From the NCBI GenBank assembly GCA_004369045.1, contig ML213506.1, positions 932,264 to 996,263 of the forward strand: a DNA stretch of 64,000 nt, in the 5' to 3' direction. A program made the translations under genes and the position numbers. Each line of letters starts with the position of its first letter. The first letter of the stretch is position 1. Below, one piece after another: positions 33,837 to 60,426 of this stretch. The notes beneath the pieces are model-generated. The model made no database searches. It was not told where the DNA came from and saw nothing but the letters and a program-made list of their open reading frames with translations. The stretch is from Heliocybe sulcata (lineage: Eukaryota > Basidiomycota > Agaricomycetes > Gloeophyllales > Gloeophyllaceae).

Positions 33837-36800
33837 TCAAGCAAATCCGAAGCCCTCTCCACCTTCGTTGATGGCTAATAACAGCTGCTGCCTTAGCATC
33901 TCGTATGAGGTGTACTGAGGCAAGTCAATCTGGTTGAAACCTGGTGGAAAGCCAGCGTCAACGACATATATACAACGTATGGAAGGTCGTCGCTCACATG
34001 TATGAGCCTGCGGTAACCGATCTGCGTCACCGTACGCCTTGTGGATCGAGAATCTCTGGGTGCCTTGGACGCCCTGCAAATCCGTGAAACCACCAAGCGG
34101 CACGCGGGACGTTCCGGTCGCGAAGCTGAGGACCTTTGCTCTTTCATCCCGATTGAATGATTTGAGTGCTCGCCACCACCACACGATGACAGGATCGGAG
34201 CTCGTATATCCATGATATTCGGTCGCAGCTCGCCATTCATCTACGTCAATATCTGGCGTACCGGAGATAAGCAACTCCAGCTCTTGCTCGTTGAACTATA
34301 TGTCCGCTGTTAGCGCATGAAAACCAAGCGGACAATTGAAGCTACGTACGATCGCTACAAGATCCTTTGGTATGATCTCGTAGAATCCGCCAAGAAGAGC
34401 CTCGATTTGATCCTTTGTGGAGAGGTACAGTCGATATTGCGCAGACAACTGGACGAACTCCTTCTTGTTTTCCTGCGTAACTGGGGTGGAGATGCCGCCC
34501 TCCTTCAACGGAATGACCTTGGTGGTACCAAACTAGAAGAACAAATCATGTCAGCTGCTGTACAAAGCGATGGATCCGTGGACCCACCTCATCCGCTTCG
34601 ACACTGAATGTAAGCTCCAGGGGACTAGGATCGTTCTCCAGGATCCAGCAGAGGGAATTGTAGTATTCCGGATCCACCCATTCCACGTCCCTGTAATCAA
34701 CCGGCTTGCCCAAGATCTGTCGGTACAAGCTCCGAGCAAAATATGCGTCGAGCAACCTCCCGTCATAGATGGCCTTCCCAATCACCCGTCCTACGAATTT
34801 GAAGAATATCAAGTGCTCCGGGTTGATCCACGACCGACTATTGGGCTGGTACGTTAATTTGTCGGCAGCGCAAGGTTGGAACAACGCGTTGTTAGGATCA
34901 AACATCTGCCGCGCCAGGATCTGGAACCACTCGCGAGTAACACCTCCAGCATCCACGCCCTCCTCGTCGTAGAATCGTACGCTGAGCTTGCCGTACTTGA
35001 TTTGATCCCCTGTCTTTCGTTGCAAGTGCTGCACACTATCTTCGAATACCCTAGACCGTCGCACGTTGAGCTGGAGGGTGGTGTGAGCATCCCGGGTATG
35101 AGGGCGGCGGTGCAATTGCTGGTTGAAGTAGTTCCGCTTGTTATCGAAGTCCAGGACACGAGGATTGTTCACCAGGAGGGAGAAGGATCCGCTCATCAAG
35201 GACGGATTGTTGCGGACCATCAAGTTCAAGACTTTGCGGTGAGCATCTGTGAACGCAATAAACAGGTCTTCCATGGACTCTCGAGCTGTGGACGGAGAAC
35301 GAGGAGAGGTAGTTCCCCGAAGCAACCGCGCATTGCCTTGCCCAGCTGTTTTCGGCCCTACGTACTTGCATACGACCATCAGCGACTCGATGAGCGGCAA
35401 GAGGACCGTAGCTATGTGTTCAAGCTCCTGCCGCTCCTCGATGACGGACAGGCAGTCGCCAAGGCGCCGCCAGAGGGGCGTGAACCGGAATGACTCGTAG
35501 ATACTCTGAACCTTCTCCTGATCTGTCTCGTTTATGGCACCGGTGCGGGGCGAATACATATAATCGATGGTCTTCAGCACGCGAAGCAGTTTCGCCTGAT
35601 CTGACGAAGCTGAAGCAAATTTCGATGCTACTGGGCTGCCCAGCACGTCGACCTCTGCACCTGCAAGCACTTCTGCCAGAGCGTCCAGGTCTGCATACAA
35701 CGACTGGCCAAGTTCCTGCGCTCGGGATCTCAACTCTTGCGCAATCACTTCCCTTGCATCCGGAATTGATGACAGATGCTGAATGAGCGCCAGGCTCTGC
35801 TGGAAAGTTCGTCCTGAACATTCGCCGGTGGTTAATATATTGACAACCAATCGCAGAACAGCGTGAGGAATTTGGGGAGGGTTTGCCAGCAGCATCTTCT
35901 CTTCTGGAGTGGGGTCGGCGATAGACTGCGGTTTTGCAGCTTCCTGTTCACCTGAAGCAGCGGCTGAAAGCAGATATAAAATTGAGTGTCCGTCGTAGTA
36001 TTACGATGGTAGAAACTTACAGTCTGATGTCGTTTCTGCCTGCACTGCGGAGCCCTGTCTTTCGGAAGCGTTTGGTGCCACGGCTGTCGTCGATCCTTCC
36101 TGGGCAATCTCAGCTTCACCAGAATCAGGGGGCTTCTTGTCGGTGTTGCTGAGACTGGTAAGTGGCCTTGTAATTGTCGCAAGTAAACCGACGACAGATT
36201 CCATGATTGTTGGAGTTTTGAGAAGGGACTGCCTATCCAAGAGTCCAAGAAGCAAAACAATGGGATAGTATGTCTGGGAGTTTTGCTTTTCTTTGCCTTT
36301 CCCTTTCTTGGACCCGGCTTTTCTCAGTCCCATAGGCAGCTCATGTTCAGTCAAGAAGAACAGCGGGAAATGCTCGTTGGAATTCACGATGAAGGTAAGA
36401 GCATCGAGGCATCGTTGAGCGATGACGTCGGGGACAGCTTCATGCTGGGGCAGGAGAGAGCTGAAATAATCTGAGGGCACCCTTTGCTTTCCGGTACTCC
36501 TTGGTGTTTGTTGGGAAGGCGACTTCGCATTGCGGAAAGACATCTGAGAGAAACTTTTGTCGACAGCGGAAAGGTCTCCAGAACCGTCCTGGAGAATGTT
36601 TAGTAAGAGGTTGAAGAGCTCTGTACGAGTCTTCGAGTTCTCGCATAGGTTCACCAGGACCTGGAACAAGAGGTTCTTCTTCAGCACATGCGGGAAGAAC
36701 AACAGGCGCGCAAGAATAACGACGCCCGATTTGTCCAGCAACTGTATGGCGTCACGCGGTGCGGGAGGTTTACGGACTGCGGGTGTTCGGTTTGTCGTCC

Positions 36801-39800
36801 GAGGAGCGTTCTGCGCCGGGGGTCGACGATGGAAGGCTTCTCTGAATGCACCAGCTTCAGCAATCATGTGAGACGGCAGCGTCTGTAAAAATCCGTCATC
36901 CTGATCCAGTAATACAGCTTGCCGCAAGTTAGCATCAAGACTAGCTATGATGCTTGCTGCGTCCATCTCCGCCGGAGCGGCCGGTGGTCGCGATCCCTCC
37001 TGTGCTTGCCGCACTCTCTCCATGTTCTCCTGTTGGATAATCTCTGCGCGGATCTCGGGAGGCAAGGCATCAAGGAACTCCGGACTGATTTGGGAATCAG
37101 TAGGTCGTTCGACTCTCGCAGCTCGCTGCTCGCGAACATGCTGGTTCAGAACTTCTTCCCGCATGTCGTCCGGAAGCGCTTCGAGGAAAGTAGGATCTAT
37201 GCCGGTGTCCGTGATATCGACCGCGCTCCCATGGATCATGACAGTCACCCGTTCTGCAGTAGCCGACGCTGCAGCTTGAGAAGTAGTGGCTTCAGGTGCA
37301 GGGTTGCCCTCACTACGCTGCTCTGCCTGTGCAACCCCGACGGACGAAGCATCACCGGGCTCGTTGGGCACGTCAGCCATCTCAATGTCAACGTCCTGTG
37401 GGATGGCAGGTTGAGCAGAGTCAAGGACTGTGGATCCAGACGTGGCAGCCTCCTGGGATGGTTGTCCGGAGTTTTGCCCCTCGGTGCCCTGTCCCTGTGC
37501 AAGACGCTCTTTCTCCTTTCCAGCCTCCTCCTCCTTTTTAGCCTCCTCCTCCGCTCTAGCTTGTGCTTCACGCTGCCTTGCCAGTACCTCTTCCTCCTTC
37601 CGCTTGTTCTCGATCGCAGCAGGGAGAAGAGCCAACAGAATGTGGTTTGCCAACTTATTCAGACGGTCGGACACGGACTTGCCGTGAAAAATCTTGGCTT
37701 GTTCCGCCCAGCGCTGTACGGTGAGCAAAGGTTCGAAGTCGCGAGCTCTCGAGCGACCATCTCTTGGCGCTCTGTCGAGTCTCAAAGAAGCCGAAAGTCC
37801 ACCGCGGGGATGCCGTTGCAGTGGGCCGCGATCGACGTTAAGGACGGCGCCATTAAGTCGGATTTCTTGAGGACCACCAGCACGGCCGGGTGCAAGAACG
37901 TGCTGTATCAACTGAATGGCACCGCCTCCAATGACATCCTCGATTGTTTGGATGAAGTCGCCATAGCCGTTCCCCAGTCCGCGATGAGGCCGACGGGCTC
38001 CCCTCGCTTGGAAAGGAAGGCGATTAACAGGCGGAGAGCTGTCGAGTAAAAGAGGATGAGTGATCGCTTCCGGAGCAGAGGCTCCCATATTGCCGATTCT
38101 TCCGAAGATGGTCATGTCATCGTTGGCTACTGGATACGAGGTTAATACTGTCGAAATTATCAATATTCATGCAAGACTTACTCCCGCGACGACGACCAGC
38201 CCGGTCACTTCCAAAGAGCCACCCTGGAGCCGCCACGAGGTTCGCAATAGCAGGGTTGAAACCGAAGACATCGTCGGCAACGGGCTGGTTCATGTCGTCA
38301 GCCTCCAGAATGCCGATCTCATCGTAGCTGCAAAAATGCTCAGATCGATAGATAGTAGGAATGAGAGATGCTCACTTATCGCCCATAGAGATAGCATCTT
38401 CTTCCTCGTCGAGTTCCTCGTGAATCACGGGGATGTTCCCTGTGCATCGTGGGCATCTATCACATATGCTACAGAAAGCCAACATACCTTGGACGTCCTC
38501 TTCGTCGCCATCCTCGGCAATATCAGCTACATCCTCGCCAGCAGGGACATCCTAAGAGGCAAACGATGATCAGGGAGCAAAGAGAAGTCTGGCAGACTGC
38601 TTACCTGCCAAACGATCTGTGCGTCGTCCTCTTCTTCACCTTCATCTTCCTCACCTTCATCTTCATCTACCTCCGCGTCATTCTCGACTAATCCTTCCTC
38701 CTCATCTTCCTCGGCGTCTTCCCAGCCGCCTTCGGACGCGTCGCTCTCGTTCTCCAGTTCTTCGTTCTCTTCATCCACTTCATCCTCAGAGGTGTCTTCA
38801 CTACCGGTCTCATCGTCCCCGAAGTCCATCTCTATGTCCTCATCCTCATCCTCATCCTCTTCATCCATATCATCCTCCGCGGAGTAATGAACATCCTCCA
38901 TTTCCTAGTGTACTTCAATAATCCGAAAGAGAACGACTAGCCTATTGCACTCACCCCGCCGTACCTATTACAGGACATGAGTTAATTAGGACGTACTGCG
39001 ATGGATGACTGGACTTACATGCCGAGAGAAGAGTTCCTGTAGAGATCTGGGGTCTCTTCCCGATCCAGTCGGTCCATACCTTCATCTTCGTCAGAAAGAG
39101 GCTCTTCCTCAATTATAGCCTTGTCATCACGTGTATCCTTGTTCTTATCCGAGGCTCGACTCATTCGGATGGCGATCTTGGACCTGGTACCCATAAGAAG
39201 GAAATCGATCACTCTTAGTGAATATACACTCACAACTGTTCCAAGGGACGTAGGAGAGCAGTCACTAAACCTCGGACATTAGGATAGTTCAGGTCGACCT
39301 CCCCCAGTGCATTCGTCAGCGCCGCCACGAAGTTTTTCTCGAGCATGATCTTGCCAATGTGAGTAGGGCTCTCGTCTTGAGACTTTCGAGTACCGGTATT
39401 GAACCGCACAACAAGCAGGCGATTGCAAAGATCAGCCAGAGCCAATAGACGGCCGTACCGTAGATCAACAGGTTCGGGACCGGGAAGATCCCGGATAGCT
39501 CGGCCTATAGCCTCGATGACAGTTTTGCGAGTCGTGACCAGATCCTGCGGAATCTCCTTTGTGTCTTCCCCAGAGAAAGTATCTACACAAAGTGCAACAA
39601 CAATAGACATTGCCCAGTTGCAGAGCATGATGCGTTTGCGAGCATCCACACCTGGCTGAGGCTGTATAGTGCCAAAGGAGATCAGGTCAGAGAGAACGAA
39701 ATTGAGGGCGGCGACTTTGTGCTTGTTACCGTGCTCCTTGCTCGGCGTCTGCCCGCGTCGCTTTGGGGAATAGGAGAGGAACGCTGTTTTGCAAACGTCG

Positions 39801-42800
39801 TACGAGAACAGCAATTCTGTCAGGCATTGAATCAAGAAGCACGAGTAACCACTATCAGGTTGACTCGAGTCTCCGGATTCTTTTGCTGTCTCCGTCTCGC
39901 TTAAAGTCGCAGCTGCAGCCTGCGTGGATTCACTGGTGGATGAGCGTGCAAGGCTGGCGTCAGCTCGTTGTTCACCAGCAGGCTTGACTGCATGTTGCAA
40001 TTCTGTGATGAGGAAGTGGACCAACGGCTCGACGAGCGTGCCCCCAGGAGCCGCGCCACCATCGCCCACAGGATCTACTTCCATGGGCACCGGGGTAGTT
40101 CCCTGATTTGTGCTGTGGTTCGTCGCGCTTTTGTCCTCGCCAGGTTTAAGACTGATCTGCCGCACTGTGGAGAAGGGCTGCGAGAGCTGGCATATGGAGG
40201 ATGTCACCTTCAAGAATATCTCCGGGTCACGTAGCGCCAGAGAACTGCATTGTTTCAGATAGCTGCCGACATCCACGACGCGGGTGCGGGGGTGAGATAA
40301 GAATCGCTTGATCTCTTGGCGCATAATGTTCTGCAAAACAGCGGGGTCCTCGATGATGTGACGGATAATGAGTGTAGTATAGGATCGCAAACCGGAGGCA
40401 TGTTCACCGGAGGGGTTGGCCTTGAGGTGCTGCAGGATAAGAGACACGCCATCTCGCCGGACAAGTTGTACCGCTAGTCCATGGTCACAAGTGAGCAGTA
40501 CCAGCAGCCTTGAGACTGAGAGTAGCTCATCACGGGGGAGGCTTGTTACGGCGAGAAGTCGAAGGCAGAAATCAAAGAGCATAGTCTTTGCATCTGAGTA
40601 GTCAGGCCCAGCTGTGAGATTAGCCTTATTGATAGGTTCACCTTCCTTGGGTAAAGCAATAGTAGCGGGCTCCTGGGCCAAGACCAGCAGAGCTTCTACA
40701 ACCAGTAGATGGGACGCCAGCCATTTGGGAACAGGTGGATTGGTGCTGTCGGAGCTTGTAGGTTGGTTTGACAAAAGCAATGCCAAAAGGGTGTCCATTA
40801 GATCTCTTCCTCCGTCAATAGCCTTCGTAACTGTCGTCGGAGACTCATTGAGTACAAGGGCCAGAAGACGACATCGAACGCCAAGAGGCTGTTCTTGAAC
40901 ATCATATGCTTGAGGGGAGAAGCGCTTTATATCATCAATCACTTGACGGATAGATTCAACCTGGTAGCCTTCTGCCCCGCCTATGAAAGCACTGCGCACA
41001 TCGAACGTGAGGGATGGGTGCTCGTCTACTAGGCGGAGGGTCTGACGACCCATCTGAGCTTTCAGAGGTACTCGCGCTTCGTCCAACTCCTTCCTCCATT
41101 CCTGCGCAGTCTTGCGCAGAACATCAGGTGGCTCGGCTTGGGGAGGATCCGCCTGAGTTACATTGGTACCAGGAACGTCCGAGTTCGACGTACTTCCGCT
41201 CGAAGAACCATCGGCCACAGACAGGGGGTTTGCATCCATCGGCGCGTCCTGAGCCGCGGGAGGGATGGGAGCTTCATTAGGCTCGGGATCTGGTGCGAAG
41301 GGAAAGGGATGGGCGAGAAGCATTTCCGTAGCGGCGTTCACATTGTTATGTGCGCGCATCAAAGCGCGCTCAGCGGCAGATCTGGGGAAACCCATATCCA
41401 TAATTTGCCGGACGCGATTGTCGTCCACTACAAATGTGCGGGGAGCAACGTTCGATGGCACCGGTCCTCCAAGTTCGGCAAGGTCAACGAGCTCTTCATG
41501 TTCACCATTTACGATCTGCAAGATGATTTGCACGATAGTCTTGCTCAAGCTTATCGGAGGGAAGGCAAGCCAGGGGGCCTCCCATATCTCCCGCATCAGA
41601 GGCGTAACGGCCAAACGAAGTCTGACCAGGAAGTTATGCGGCTCAAAATACTCTGGGTCCGTCTCTTGTTTGTCGCGCGTGATGGCAAAAGCGGTTTGAC
41701 CAGAATCAAAGAGAGGTTTCGAGGACACGAGCGGCAGCAGCAGGTGCAGTGCCACTTTGAATCCACCATAGGCAGGTACCAAATCCCGCTTCACAGCCTC
41801 TGAGGTCTGGTCGCCCTTAACGGCCGCGTCTGCTATGGTCGGGATCAGGTCGCGGCAAATGGTGAAGACTGCTTCAAGTCCTCCAGCGCGATAGAAAGCG
41901 ATTAACAGCATCGTGTGAAGAGTGCTCTGCGAAGCTCGATCTGTTCACTAAATGTTAGTCAGACGTATCAGGACACTTAGGGAACTCACCATCAATTAGT
42001 AAAATGGCCATTAGACCAAGCATGACCGTATAGTAGGCGAAGGCGGACGGTTTGTCATCTGAAATCTCTCGATAAGCTTCATGTTCCGGAGTGCAAGCAA
42101 AAGAGCGGACCCAGTGGTTTAGGCTCCAGATGCTTAAGCATGACGTTGGCCACTACAGACGCAGCATCCATGATCAGTTTCTTCTGGACAGGGTCCGGAT
42201 TCCGTCTCGTGTAGAACATCTTGACGATGGCTGAAGTCGGGTTTAGGGACGACAGATAATCACTTGGAAATGCGACTCACCCGAGAACAGCGGAGACAGC
42301 GAGCTCGGAATCTGCTTGAGCAGATGATGCAGAGCCTTAGCATTCTGATCCCGAACAGTATCCTTTCCGTGAGTGTCCTTGCCAATGTTCGGGCCCTCTG
42401 GTTGATCTGCCCGAGCTCCATCCTGAACTCCCATTCCATTTGCCGGTGGGAGCATGCCGTCATCGTCCATCAAATCGGGGGACCCGCGAGGTGTCCCTTC
42501 ATCCAGTACGGAATCGGACGGACTAGAGGCAAGGTCGACCCCTTTCGATGCGAGGCCGGCCTTGAAAATGATGTTCTCCCATACACAAGCTCGATGCAAA
42601 GCGCCCAGCTCTGGCACGATCTCCGGAGAACCCCGACCCATCAGAATTTGAAGGAAACCTGATGTCGCGCGGGTATGAGCATAGCTCGCCGTTGCATATA
42701 CTTCTGACAGCAGTGTAACCCGTGTGTGCAGAGTCACGAGATCCCGGAAGCGCCCGTTGGCATCCATAACTTCTTCATCTATTGGTACGCCCCTGGTTAA

Positions 42801-45800
42801 TAACTATAGGCCCCGGGAGCATATGAAGAGACTCACGAGTGATCTCGACCATCGACAAGGTCTTCGACTTGTCTCCAGTTGTGTCCCAGAAATCTTTGGT
42901 CTTGTCCAAGGACTCTTTCACCTTCTTAGCCAGGAAAACGAGAGCATCGTTAGGCGCAGCTTCACCCATAGTCCGAATCACTTGGACTAAAGAATCCGAC
43001 GACACGCTGTTGGCGAAGTCGTATGGCAAACAAGGGAGAGCCGTTAGCCGCAGCAGTCGCTCCATTCCATCCGTGGAAGAGATGAAATCTCTACAATGCG
43101 GCGTGTGCTGAAAGAGCCCTTCCAGGAACTGGGGAGAAACATGAGTAACAGACGTGAGACGTATGAACTGCCGCTCGTACCCTGCCCACTACGTCAATGT
43201 AGTGCACGATAATGTTATCATGGGACTTTGGAATCGATTCATCCGAGTTGCTCGCAGACTCAGGCGACGTAGTGGTGGCGGTAGTAGTAGTAGTAGTAGT
43301 CGGCTCAACTTCCATCGATGACAACCCCGTGTCTTGAACCTCAGCCGCTTCCGTCGGCGCAGCATCGCTCGAGACGGGAGATAGCCCATACCAAGGCCTC
43401 AGGTCATCGGGCACAACATAAGTGTTCCCTAGATCTTCGATCTTCCCGAGTGTGGCCTTGATCGCCTCGAAGACAGGCTGCTTAAGCGAGGGATGATGCC
43501 GGATCAATTCATCGATCGCAGAACCTATGAGGACTGAGTTCTCCTTGTCCTGTAAGACCTTCAAGTGCCGATCTGAGGTGAAGACCGAGAATAGACCGGG
43601 GATAATGGTTGGTCTCGCGGCGAGCTGATCTTGACCAGCTTGGTTCAAGCAAAGAGCTCCGATAGCGTTCGGGATCGCTTGGATGACCTGAGGAGCCAGT
43701 AAGTGATGTCGCACAGCACGTCTCAAAGGGCCCAAACTGCCGTACCTCAATGATCGGCTCAATTCCCGCATCGACTGCCTTGTAAAACGCCTCAGGCAGT
43801 CCAGCCTCTTGGATCACTGCGAGAGAAGTGGGCTCATTGTGTACGAAGGTAGACATGATGTTGATCGCTGCAGGCATCACGTTAATATGAAAACCACAGG
43901 ATTACCGGAGTCAACGAACCGATGGGGAGGACACTGGGACCGAAAAGAATTCGGTTCTCAATGATTTTCTTAATGGACTTGAGGACCGAGGAATCAATGA
44001 GGCCACGGAGACCCTCTGCAGTACCCGATGACTGCATCATGCGATGCAGTGATCGCAGCAGATGTTTGAGAACCGCGGCCCGGGTCACTGACATGTGTCC
44101 TGGAACTGGTTAACAGATAATCGAGCAAGCTCATCCGAAGAGAACCTACCATATGACTTGGTTATGCTGCTGCCGTCTAAGCGGCCATATTCCTTGATGT
44201 CGAAGTCGACTTCATGCTGGTGATCTCGAGTCTCAGCACCCGATAAGTCTGAAATAATAGCGGACTTACCTCGACTCTGTCCACGAGAACGTCGACACCA
44301 CGATTGTTACAGAACAACTGGAAGGCGTTACTGAACGCATACAGAACGTTGTCGACGAGCTGCATGGTCTTCGAGACAACGGGAAGTCGTTGTGGCAGCT
44401 TGTTCTCGATGATCTGTATCAATAGCGGCACGAGACCCGCGCCTACTACCATGTTGCCGCCAGCCGAATGGGATGCAATAAAGGTAACAAAAGACAGCAG
44501 CCCGTCGACAAACGCGTGGGGAAGCGTGGATTCAGGGTTTGCAACGTCGTTGACTGTCTTACGCAACAGCGCCATCAATATTCCATGATTCACACCTGCA
44601 TTGACTGCAGCAAGGACTTCTTGAATCTTGTTTCGATATCTGGCTATCGAATCGAGCGCGGCTATGGCGGCCATCTGTACTGGAGCCGGGACGCCGCGGT
44701 CAAGCTGGAGCAGCTCAGCGATGTGTGTGATGATGTCCAGTTCGTATAGGAAAAGAGCTGCGCTTGCTTGCGACTCTGAGTGGGTGTGGCAGAAGATGCC
44801 AATGGATAGCAGCCGGGCGATCACTAGCTTCTCGCGTTCAGCCTCGCGACCAGAAGCGAGCACCTGTGCCGAGCGGATTCGGCACAGGAGCTCGAACTTG
44901 TCGTCGTCAGGCATAGCGTATGTCTCCATCGCGTCAGCGAGAATCTCCATGGCAGGCTTTGAATCCAGAGTTTGGCTGTCGATGTGAACATGGACAGCGC
45001 CAGAGGTTGCAGAGCTGGTCGATGCCACTTGCGCCTTGCGAGGTGTCTGAGGTGTGAATGGATCATTGTCCTTTTCCTTATCCAAGTCCTTCTCGTCCTT
45101 CTTGTAGAAAGTGAAGTTCACTTCTCGGGCTTCAGACGGTAGATCGCCTATGCGAGCCCTTCCGGTGGCGCTCACTAGGTCTACTAATCCGACGTCATAC
45201 TCCCTGAGATTTGGCCAGCGCTTCGCAAGAGACTGTAGGCGTGGGGTCGAGATGTGCAACGCTTGTGCCACTGATGGCTGCGCAGAGTATTGTTGAGCGG
45301 GACGTAGCAGCAGGTTCAGAGCGAGAGCCAATATATCGAGATCCGCAGTCAACAACAGACTGTTTAAACGCTGTAACAGATATATTAACGGAAGCGATGC
45401 AGCAGAGAAACCACGCACGTCGTAGGAGCTGAATATCTTCCTGTTCGTAGAATTCTCCAATAGTAATCTCTCAAATCTTAGAATCTCCGCAGTCGTCTTC
45501 TTGGTCCTCGGCGTAAACAAGTTGACCTGCACTTTGTCGATGTGATAGTCGTTGATGACCTCCTCGAGGACGGCGTCAAACTTGTTCAGGACCTTCACCC
45601 ACGCGTTGAGGTCCGAACGCGGCCACTTCCAGCTGTCAATCTCTCCGAGGACCTCGGGCAGGTCCTCGTTGGGTGTATCGTGAATCTTGTTGATGAGTTC
45701 CGCCACTTGCGGATGCTAGAGAGCGGGAGAGATCAAGTCAGGCATGGATTCAGGTGAGACAAAAGGGCGCGCACCGGGGGGGCGGCCCTCCTTGACTTGT

Positions 45801-56308: not shown

Positions 56309-57190
56309 CTAGTAAGCCTTCTTGCCCGCGGTAAGCTGCAGGTGAGCAGAGTGCTCGTCGTAGGGGACCTTGGACAATGGGATCTCGCGCCACAGGTCGG
56401 GCGTGAGGAATGCGTATGTTTTTGTGATCTAGGAAATCATGAGCACAGATCCCGCATCGGAAGCTTGGGTGACTTACAGCCATGAAAGTAGCCTTCAAGA
56501 AGTTACCCATCGTGGCAGTCGAGCCCTTCGATGACGTGTAGACGTCCTCGACACCAGCGAGCTGCAACAGGCGCTTGGATGCCGGCGCGGCAACAATACC
56601 GGTTCCGCGAGGCGCGGGGATGAGACGGCACATAACGGAACCACTCTTGCCACTGACTTTCGAGGGCACAGTGTGGGGCTCTCCGAGCTTAGCACCCCAG
56701 TAACCTCTCCGGACCGGAATGACAGAGAGCTTGGCGAGGATGATAGCACCACGGATCGCAGTAGCGACTTCCTTTGCGCACTTGACACCCAATCCGACGT
56801 GACCGTCGAAGTCGCCGATAGCAACGAATGCCTTGAAACGTGTACGCTGACCAGCACGGGTCTGCTTCTGGACGGGCATGATCTTCATAACTTCGTCCTT
56901 GAGCTTGGGCAGGAAGAAGTCGACGATCTGGTACTCCTTCACGGGCAGGGAGAAGAGGTATATTTCCTCCATGGACTTGATCTTGCCGTCCTTAACGAGA
57001 CGGCCCAACTTGGTGACAGGGACCCTATACGTCCCGTTAGTATCCAGTACTTCGGTAGGTACATTGACACCACGTACCACTCCTTCTCCTCGTCCTTGCG
57101 GCCACCACGGCGAGGTCCGCGACGGCCCCTGCCACGGTCACCACCACGACCACGCCCGAATCCACCACGTCCGCGTCCAGCGTCAGCCAT
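56309..57190 (-). CDS. RPS2: Small-subunit ribosomal protein uS5 (RPS2)
   Basis: A 40S ribosomal protein at the mRNA entry side. Three exons join in phase: 57078-57190, 56478-57024 and 56309-56428, giving 259 residues. The N-terminus is the typical RG-rich arginine-methylation region ([21 protein letters not shown]). KEW joins across intron 1 to [15 protein letters not shown], followed by [14 protein letters not shown], the S5 signature [40 protein letters not shown] and [18 protein letters not shown]. The last exon encodes [13 protein letters not shown]...YDEHSAHL. All features match the eukaryotic family. Confidence 0.98.
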
Positions 57191-57915
57191 TTGAAGTCGG
57201 GAGAGAGTTACTGCAACAAAGCGTAAGCCGATACCTCATGTCGAAGACCAGGATTCCATTAGCGCCGCCTCATCCATCCAAGTTTCTAGCAACCAATCCA
57301 TCCGCCCAAACTTCGACTCAGATCCCAGAATTTCTCCCAGACATCCATGACCACTCTCTTCAACGGTGAGGACAACCCAGCGATGCGAAATGTACTCACG
57401 TCTTGAGGTACGGGAGAGTCGTGCGTTGAAGCTCGAACTTAGTCGATAGGACCAGTAAGAATCGCGGCAAAGACCGGACCGGGCGATACTATCCGTGAGA
57501 ACCGGAACAATCTCCGGATACTTTGTGGACCATTGTGGCGGACAAGTGGCACTTTTTATTCTCTTTTTGCTCCCGGACAGCTCGTAGCCATTACTATAAT
57601 TTATTTAACTTGCTGCAAGACCTGCAGCTGTACCCTCAGATTTCCAAGAGAATCTGAACATGTCCGATGGTCCGAAGGGATAAAGTTAGCGTTGGAGTCG
57701 ATAGGCAGAGACTGCGCCACGAGGCTTATGTAATGCACATGCGGCAAATATAAGATCTGGTCGCAAGGTTTCATAGCCCCAACCGCTGACCGAACGCCCC
57801 GTGTTGCCGCACTCTGTCTGTGAGTCCACGATGAATCTCCTGTCGAAGCCGTGCATTGCTCAAAAAGCCGATACTTACAGATCCCGCGCTCAATTCGCAA
57901 CGAAGTTGGCACCTC
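57191..57915. other. Divergent promoter region RPS2/antizyme
   Basis: 725 bases separate the two start codons. Pyrimidine-rich tracts occur near the RPS2 side. No further gene or clear TATA box is seen. 5' UTR introns are possible on either side. Confidence 0.5.
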
Positions 57916-59005
57916 ATGTCGAATATTATAATGTCGAATTGTACCAAACCGCAATCTAGTCTTTGCCCCACGTATGTCGTTCCGTTGTTCAGACTGATGC
58001 TTGCGTACTGACATTCCACTTACAGCAACGGCCGTCAAGCCGTTGGGGATGGGGCTCTCTCCTTTGACGCTGCGCCTAGTGTTCTCGCCGTCTGCCACAT
58101 GCAAGGCGCCGACGACCTCTACTACTACTCTACTACGTTCTCTGGCGGACCCGGGGTAGGTGCTTACTGCCTCGATATCTTACTCATCGCTTACCTATCG
58201 GCCAATTTAGTGGCGTTTTTGACATCCCTAACGAGAAATGCCCTCCTGACCGAGGGTCGTCGGACTGGGTGACAGACAGTCCGGCGCGTATCTTCTCTAC
58301 CTCTCCCGTTTCCGACCGATCATCTATCTTTTCCTTGCCTGAAGCGGAATACTTCCCGAAAGCCGTGGTATACCCGCCGACACCCCCGCCTGAAGATGTA
58401 CACACCGCGCTGAAGTCGTTCTCGCGTGTACCAGCAGCAGTAGTAGCCTCACCTCAAGCAATCCGTGGCAGAGTGAGCGCGCCCGTCGAAGAGTTGATAA
58501 CCCCGCCCCTTACTCCGGATGATGGAGAAGAAGGTGATGGCAGCGTCTCAGCGATCAGCGCTAAGCAGTCGAATGCTGCTTTAGATTTCCTGACTGTTCT
58601 GTTCCCTCGCAATGGTCTCAGTGCTTTGCCATATGCCAAGAGCGTCTCCATCTCGGCTCCTAATGGGGGAGCGACGTTCGATGGGGTCGTTCTGGAGTTA
58701 CCGGACAAACCGAAGACTTTCTATGTCAATGGCCGTAATGCTGACAGCGTCAACTTGAGGGAAAGGTACGTGATCCACACCGATCTCAAGTATATTGGAA
58801 GCTCAATCGTCTGCACAGCATCACTGCACTCTTAGATCTAGCCGACGAGCAATTGCAGTGCTCAGCGCTGATAATCGCACTTGAGCGTGCCTCCCCAGTA
58901 TTGGGCGACCTGCTGCATGCTTTGATGTATGTTGGTGGCACAGTTGTTACCAAACCTCCCTTCCAGGCAGACCCCGCGTTCGTGCTGGTTGGGTTGGAGA
59001 TTTGA
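57916..59005 (+). CDS. OAZ1: Ornithine decarboxylase antizyme (+1 frameshift)
   Basis: Binds ornithine decarboxylase and targets it for proteasomal destruction when polyamines are high. ORF1: 57916-57971, 58026-58155 and 58211-58219, ending at UUU before the stop TGA (58220-58222). ORF2 starts one base later: 58221-58765 and 58819-59005. Together they give 308 residues, with one base (58220) skipped. ORF1 reads MSNIIMSNCTKPQ..., ...YYYSTTFSGGPGWRF; ORF2 begins DIPNEKCPPDRGSSD. The C-terminal domain shows the antizyme fold: TFYVNGRNADSVNL, then SITALLDLADEQLQCSALIIAL and LMYVGGTVVTKPPFQADPAFVLVGLEI. Intron phase fits throughout apart from the frameshift itself. A second in-frame ATG at 57931 is an alternative start. 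Confidence 0.9.
58217..58223 (+). promoter_or_regulatory. OAZ1: Programmed +1 frameshift site TTT-TGA-C
   Basis: ORF1 reads TGG-CGT-TTT-TGA (58211-58222). Slipping one base forward gives TTT-GAC-ATC-CCT-AAC and enters ORF2. Antizyme genes of animals and fungi need such a polyamine-stimulated +1 shift; the best-known site is UCC-UGA, and UUU-UGA is the version I recall from nematodes. Confidence 0.8.
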
Positions 59006-59389
59006 GCGGGCTAGCAGGTTTCGATTCAGTAGGATGACAAGGGCGCTCGGACAGGATGTCCTTTACATACTTTCTTGGTTGCATGTTTCGGTCGGTTAAC
59101 CTCTGTACGTAGTTGCGGGGATGTATCTCATGCTTCTTTGTACCCATGCTGTGCGTCTTTGTGATGCGCGAGTGATGCACAAGGCTCTTCGCTTGCTCTC
59201 CCTCCAGCATGTTGTCTGGGGTGTTCTTTGTTCTTTCGAGTCATGGCAACAGTGCCCCTTGCGTTTGACAGCTCTTTTACGTTCTGTCGCGCTGCTGCGT
59301 GTATATAAAGGCCCCGAGGATCAAGGCAGGAGGATATCTACCAAACTGTCCCGGCGACCTAGGCACCCTGTCCGAGTCCTACGATTGTA
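59006..59389 (+). other. Antizyme 3' flank and Smr-gene promoter
   Basis: This 384-base gap is T/G-rich, with a TATA box at 59302-59309 for the downstream gene. No other gene is seen. Confidence 0.55.
59302..59309 (+). promoter_or_regulatory. TATA box of the Smr-domain gene
   Basis: TATATAAA lies 81 bases before the ATG at 59390, a normal distance for a fungal promoter with a 30-50 base leader. Confidence 0.6.
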
Positions 59390-60426
59390 ATGTCTATCCT
59401 AGGGCAGATATTCAATGCCTTTGTACGGTTGCTGTGCGGCGACCAGCCACAGCAGCAGCCTGCAACTGAGCAGCAACCTCCGTACAAACCACCTAGTCCG
59501 AGGCCACAACAAGGACGGCCACCAGAGAAACCACATGCTCCATCCCCTCCTCGTCCGCACGGCCATGTAGTACGTTCACACTTAGCCAGGCGGAGTGGAA
59601 TCACAGTGCTGACTTGTCTATGGCTATGTAGAACCAGAACCAGATCAACCAGCAGAATGAGCACTACGTGAGCTTGCGAGACCGTGCTCGGGAGGAGGGC
59701 GCGCAGATGGCGAAGTGCTTCGAAGAGAGCAAGGCTGCATATTCTAGTGGTGATGGTGCACGGGCCAAGGAACTGTCGAATGAGGGACACAGACATGAGG
59801 CGGAGATGCATCGTCTGAATGCGCAGGCGAGCGAATGGATCTTTATTGGTGAGTATACCATGATACGGACACAGAGTACAGAGGTGACACTGACCGGCTC
59901 TATGCGTAGAGAACAACAAGGTATGCTATATTGAGGCCGTCCTTCCAATCTCTACTAAGACTGCCTCGCAATCCAGGACAGTCAACCGGGCGAAGTGGAC
60001 CTGCACGGGTTGTTCGTCAAGGAGGCCATCTCTTACACAGATCGTGCCATTCAAGACGCTCGAGGACGAGGAGAGTCCGAGATACGCCTCATCGTCGGTA
60101 GGTGACTTGTCCTTCGATCCTGAAACGTGGTAATCAATGTTTTTCGCATCTAGGCAAGGGTCTGCACTCTCCTAATGGTATGGCAAAATTAGAGCCAGCT
60201 ATAAAGGATTTAATGCAAAAGTACGTTCATTTCGAAGATCTAAGTACGCTCTTACCTGACTTGAGGATGTCCCAGACATGGTTTGGTCGCGGAGTTGGAT
60301 CCCCAGAACTCTGGCGTGCTCATAGTTGATCTTGACGGACAGAGCAAGGGACGAGGACCAGTGCTTGGCCCAGAAGAAATCATGGGCAAGCTGAAGTCAG
60401 ACCGAGAGGGTTGTGTCATCATGTAG
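59390..60426 (+). CDS. DUF1771-Smr domain protein
   Basis: Six exons join in phase: 59390-59566, 59632-59848, 59910-59920, 59977-60097, 60154-60220 and 60276-60426, giving 247 residues. A Pro/Gln-rich N-terminus precedes a DUF1771 helical hairpin (LRDRAREEGAQMAKCFEESK...YSSGDGARAKELSNEGHRH) and an Smr domain: VDLHGLFVKEAISYTDRAI (the LDxHG motif), LIVGKGLHSPNGMAKLEPAI (the TGxG-like loop) and GLVAELDPQNSGVLIVDL. Smr domains bind RNA and in some proteins (Cue2, NONU-1) cleave it; the yeast DUF1771-Smr protein YPL199C has the same layout. Exon 3 is an 11-base microexon. An RNA-related function is inferred from the family. Confidence 0.9.

Follow-up and report, generated by a model that had tools for sequence, protein, structure and literature searches.

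A Heliocybe sulcata antizyme gene with an Agaricomycete-type UUU-UGA frameshift cassette and introns located within two of its predicted elements

Positions 57916-59005 (plus strand) of the window, which is the whole stretch of 64 kb analysed here, carry a gene that almost certainly encodes an ornithine decarboxylase (ODC) antizyme of the Agaricomycete type, in which polyamine-stimulated +1 slippage at a UUU-UGA site would yield an antizyme of 308 amino acids. The gene, its two frames, its domain and the layout of its elements are established at the level of the sequence, and the assignment to the Agaricomycete type is supported by the frameshift cassette. Frameshifting, the polyamine response and the roles of the nascent peptide, module A and the 3′ structure have been published for Coprinopsis cinerea, and by analogy they would apply here.

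The gene was modelled with four exons and three GT-AG introns (Table 1); the start codon and all introns are read from the sequence. In the spliced model the zero frame from the first ATG encodes 65 amino acids (ORF1), has SGGPGWRF as its last residues and stops at the TGA of the shift site. If base 58220 is omitted a single protein of 308 amino acids results, of which the spliced ORF2 product accounts for 243. Spliced translation showed that both frames are intact apart from the break at the shift site. Four of the seven AGs were tried as acceptor of intron 3 (58818, 58835, 58841 and 58858), and only 58818 gave the full-length end. Intron retention was rejected as a way to join the frames: with all introns kept the zero frame stops within intron 1, and keeping intron 2 alone (55 nt) leads to an early stop and a frame that is not that of ORF2. 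The sequence ATGTCGAAT is present twice in frame at the start of ORF1, at 57916 and 57931 (57916-57939), which results in two possible start codons.

Table 1. Predicted features of the antizyme gene, in positions of the window.
Feature	Position	Strand	Description
exon 1	57916-57971	+	ATG 57916, second in-frame ATG 57931; includes 5′ stem bases 57965-57971
5′ RNA stem, 14 bp	57965-58055	+	fold of the spliced mRNA; 57965-57970 pair with 58050-58055, 57971 and 58026-58032 pair with 58039-58046
intron 1	57972-58025	+	GTATGT...TTACAG, 54 nt; modelled from GT-AG and frame
exon 2	58026-58155	+	remainder of 5′ stem (to 58055), codons −15 to −5 (YYYSTTFSGGP)
intron 2	58156-58210	+	GTAGGT...TTTAG, 55 nt; separates codon −4 from codon −3
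exon 3	58211-58765	+	TGG CGT, then shift site, then ORF2
shift site	58217-58222	+	TTT 58217-58219, ORF1 stop TGA 58220-58222; +1 frame restarts at GAC 58221
AAAT	58236-58239	+	adjoins first 3′ stem
two abutting stem-loops	58240-58286	+	6 bp (58240-58257) and 10 bp (58258-58286); predicted fold
intron 3	58766-58818	+	GTACGT...CACAG, 53 nt
exon 4	58819-59005	+	end of ORF2, stop TGA 59003-59005; completes ODC_AZ domain

The original prediction had described an antizyme that is split into a zero frame ending at TTT-TGA and a +1 frame starting at GAC. These coordinates hold, and comparison of the spliced ORF2 product with Pfam identified the antizyme domain ODC_AZ (PF02100) with 45.5 bits (cut-off 24.2) and an E-value of 7.8e-12. 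The match covers residues 144-229 of the ORF2 product and profile positions 7-93 of 114; it spans the junction of exons 3 and 4, which falls near residue 182, and lies in the +1 frame that follows an ORF1 ending in UGA. A Pfam scan of the exon 3 part of ORF2 alone gave no match, which is likely due to the domain crossing this junction. The Pfam scan of the 65-aa ORF1 product was likewise without a match.

The UUU-UGA of the Agaricomycete-type cassette is found at 58217-58222. The surrounding sequence TGGCGNTTTTGAC occurs once in the 64 kb (58211-58223, when at most one mismatch is tolerated), while 0.21 occurrences are expected, and 19 of 100 shuffled sequences contained it at least once. Its uniqueness by itself is thus thin evidence, and it is the joint layout of the elements that argues against chance. 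Codons −4 to −1 are GGG TGG CGT TTT; the C. cinerea cassette has the same GGG, UGG and CGU at −4, −3 and −2, followed by UUU (PMC4505036). Module A, with its boundary set after PMC4505036, comprises the seven nucleotides G|UGGCGU and is interrupted by intron 2. The peptide YYYSTTFSGGP is located at codons −15 to −5, the position of the published nascent peptide, and its residues SGGP (codons −8 to −5) are those tabulated for C. cinerea in PMC5009743, so that the four comparable residues of the eleven are all identical. The Agaricomycete-type cassette also includes a conserved Ala-Val dipeptide in ORF1 (PMC4505036). ORF1 carries two Ala-Val pairs (QAV and LAV) here, either of which may be the counterpart of the published dipeptide.

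A 14 bp stem is predicted upstream in the spliced mRNA, with a bulge of three nucleotides (58047-58049) and with its 3′ end (58055) 106 nt before the UUU (58217). Its folding energy is −26.1 kcal/mol (z −3.84), and none of 200 shuffled sequences folded as well. One fold with three additional outer pairs places the stem 93 nt from the UUU, and two other folds are without those pairs. The published 5′ stem of Agaricomycetes has 14 bp, is located 106 nt upstream of the shift site, has a stability of at least 30 kcal/mol and contains 29 invariant bases (PMC4505036). Length and spacing thus agree with the Heliocybe stem, which is somewhat weaker than the published one.

Downstream of the shift site, the predicted 3′ stems begin 19 nt after UUU_U, that is, 20 nt after UUU. 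According to PMC4505036, the 3′ structure consists of two contiguous stems that start 19 nt downstream of the shift site, and every examined Basidiomycota sequence with this structure also contains AAAU. That count appears to start at the four-base UUU_U, because the minimal cassette of 30 nt is the sum of 7 nt (module A), 4 nt and 19 nt. The AAAU and the two contiguous stems at +19 therefore agree with the published layout. A difference was found in loop 2, which has 9 nt in the predicted fold (58268-58276) and 7 nt with six invariant bases in PMC4505036. The 3′ element has a folding energy of −26.8 kcal/mol (z −1.85), and 9 of 200 shuffled sequences were as good; taken alone, it would be only modestly more stable than shuffled sequences.

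In view of the agreement of the codons and of both spacings, we judge it very unlikely that chance, a sequencing slip or decay accounts for the site. Since the shift site is located within a run of five T (about 58215-58220), an assembly error with an extra T in TTTTT, or a decayed gene, might mimic a frameshift. However, the same break at UUU-UGA was published in 2015 for all 34 Agaricomycete sequences examined, as well as for the one Dacrymycete (Yordanova et al. 2015, PMC4505036; sequences lacking the conserved 5′ region were excluded from one of its analyses). In addition, the flanking codons and spacings agree with the published cassette and both frames are otherwise intact, and we regard an assembly error or a decayed gene as having a negligible probability. 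The sequence thus supports the proposal that this is a basidiomycete antizyme with a +1 shift at exactly this site. The suggestion that the site evolved independently or is specific to a lineage is borne out in part: its use is lineage-wide in the published set, but it is not newly revealed by this gene (PMC4505036, PMC9604110).

It had also been claimed that the flanking introns keep phase only if base 58220 is skipped. This is true for the modelled introns, but 33 alternative single introns (12 GT-AG and 21 GC-AG) join the two frames without a shift on paper. They were obtained in a limited enumeration in which one intron of 35-200 nt replaces intron 2, with donors at 58040-58225 and acceptors at 58060-58330. 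In six of the 33, bases 58211-58223 stay in the mRNA but are translated in a different frame, and the other 27 delete some or all of these bases; by construction, none gives WRF followed by a stop at the TGA. Since the reading of 58211-58223 is changed or deleted in all 33, each of them abandons the published cassette. Judged by its donor, the most plausible combines donor 58156 with the acceptor GAG at 58235. This intron is in frame and free of stops, would yield ...GGPG-KCPP... and would remove the shift site, either in the main mRNA or in a minor isoform no longer subject to polyamine control. GAG is a poor splice acceptor, whereas the three introns of the model have CAG, TAG and CAG at their 3′ ends. 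Splicing at these positions would moreover delete UGGCGU, UUU-UGA and the spacer, all of which fit the published layout. We therefore consider it highly improbable that the frames are joined by splicing.

Under the preferred reading, +1 slippage at UUU-UGA, a ribosome would hold tRNA-Phe on the UUU in the P site with the UGA stop in the A site. At high polyamine levels the tRNA-Phe would shift by one base in the 3′ direction and re-pair with the overlapping UUU (58218-58220), GAC would be read next and the 308-aa antizyme would be made; without the slip, the 65-aa ORF1 peptide would be released. The slip rate and its response to polyamines would be raised by the nascent peptide (codons −15 to −5), module A and the 3′ double stem-loop, and the 5′ stem might be a further stimulator. 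The antizyme would bind ornithine decarboxylase and direct it to the proteasome, so that rising polyamine would increase slippage and antizyme, decrease ornithine decarboxylase and thereby lower polyamine again. For Heliocybe sulcata, we only infer the slippage of the tRNA, the role of the 5′ stem and the turnover of ornithine decarboxylase.

Two of the introns are located within predicted elements. Intron 1 falls in the 5′ arm of the 5′ stem, between the seventh and the eighth base pair, and intron 2 is inserted after the first of the seven bases of module A. Both elements thus exist only in the spliced mRNA. In an intron-rich genome, introns may simply happen to fall at such positions. A stop codon far upstream of an exon junction can trigger nonsense-mediated decay, and the exon 3-4 junction (intron 3) lies 543 nt downstream of the UGA that ends ORF1, so translation without a shift could trigger this decay. 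Splicing and mRNA decay might then form a second arm of the circuit, in which unshifted ribosomes would induce decay, low polyamine would reduce both the shift rate and the amount of antizyme mRNA, and an isoform using acceptor 58235 would be independent of polyamines. We put this forward tentatively and regard it as unlikely. The main text of PMC4505036 contains no occurrence of intron, splic or exon, and a link between splicing or decay and fungal antizymes was not found addressed in the open-access literature covered (listings, the openings of abstracts and passages of PMC5009743). That introns interrupt two regulatory elements adds a small, testable detail to the published cassette. A gene finder might split or mis-splice such a frameshift gene.

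Searches for relatives of the antizyme covered several collections. A PDB sequence search with the C-terminal 110 amino acids and with the whole ORF2 product gave no antizyme chain, and an Rfam scan of 57500-59400 with E-values up to 1 gave no match. For the C-terminal 110 amino acids, five pattern matches were found in viral contigs and 127 in genome contigs, and none was confirmed in either set. When the surroundings of the shift site were searched as a degenerate DNA pattern, two viral contigs and three bacterial genome contigs matched. These five matches were rejected as chance matches: all five are in another frame that is open over about 170 nt, AAAT is absent directly after the match in all five, and tblastn of the loci with the 308-aa product gave a best E-value of 0.98. 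As the viral and genome contigs provided no antizyme orthologue, conservation across species rests on PMC4505036.

The gene for ribosomal protein uS5 (RPS2) is located at 56309-57190 on the minus strand, divergent from the antizyme gene, with 726 nt between the two start codons; its domains are PF00333 (E-value 4.4e-28) and PF03719 (E-value 7.8e-20). If the promoter region between RPS2 and antizyme is shared, a growth gene would be tied to polyamine control. Downstream of the antizyme gene, at about 59390-60180 on the plus strand, a protein with a DUF1771 and an Smr domain is encoded (spliced by eye). Further away, at 34549-45715 on the minus strand, four open reading frames carry HECT, UBM, UBA, and DUF908 plus DUF913 domains, respectively (10 of 24 open reading frames were scanned). 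Together they resemble what we take to be one large ubiquitin ligase gene of the TOM1/HUWE1 type.

Antizymes of animals and of S. pombe contain the ODC_AZ domain and likewise use a +1 shift at the ORF1 stop, with UCC-UGA as the site in S. pombe and most animals, and the antizyme shift site of nematodes is also UUU-UGA. Pseudoknots are strongly represented among the 3′ signals of the animal and S. pombe antizymes (PMC4505036). The UUU-UGA antizyme cassette is already known as a published and experimentally tested system: according to PMC4505036, the elements of mushrooms had been identified in 10 species by an earlier study that it cites, and frameshifting of the C. cinerea cassette was measured in HEK293T cells and S. 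pombe and is stimulated by the nascent peptide (codons −15 to −5), module A and the 3′ structure (PMC4505036). According to its authors, the elements seem to make the site sensitive to polyamines. The Heliocybe sulcata gene is a further instance of this cassette, and its spacings support the published layout. The antizyme of Ganoderma lucidum, GlAZ, is similarly encoded in two open reading frames with a site given as "TTTGA" (PMC9604110); its short and full products have 66 and 333 amino acids, compared with 65 and 308 amino acids in Heliocybe sulcata.
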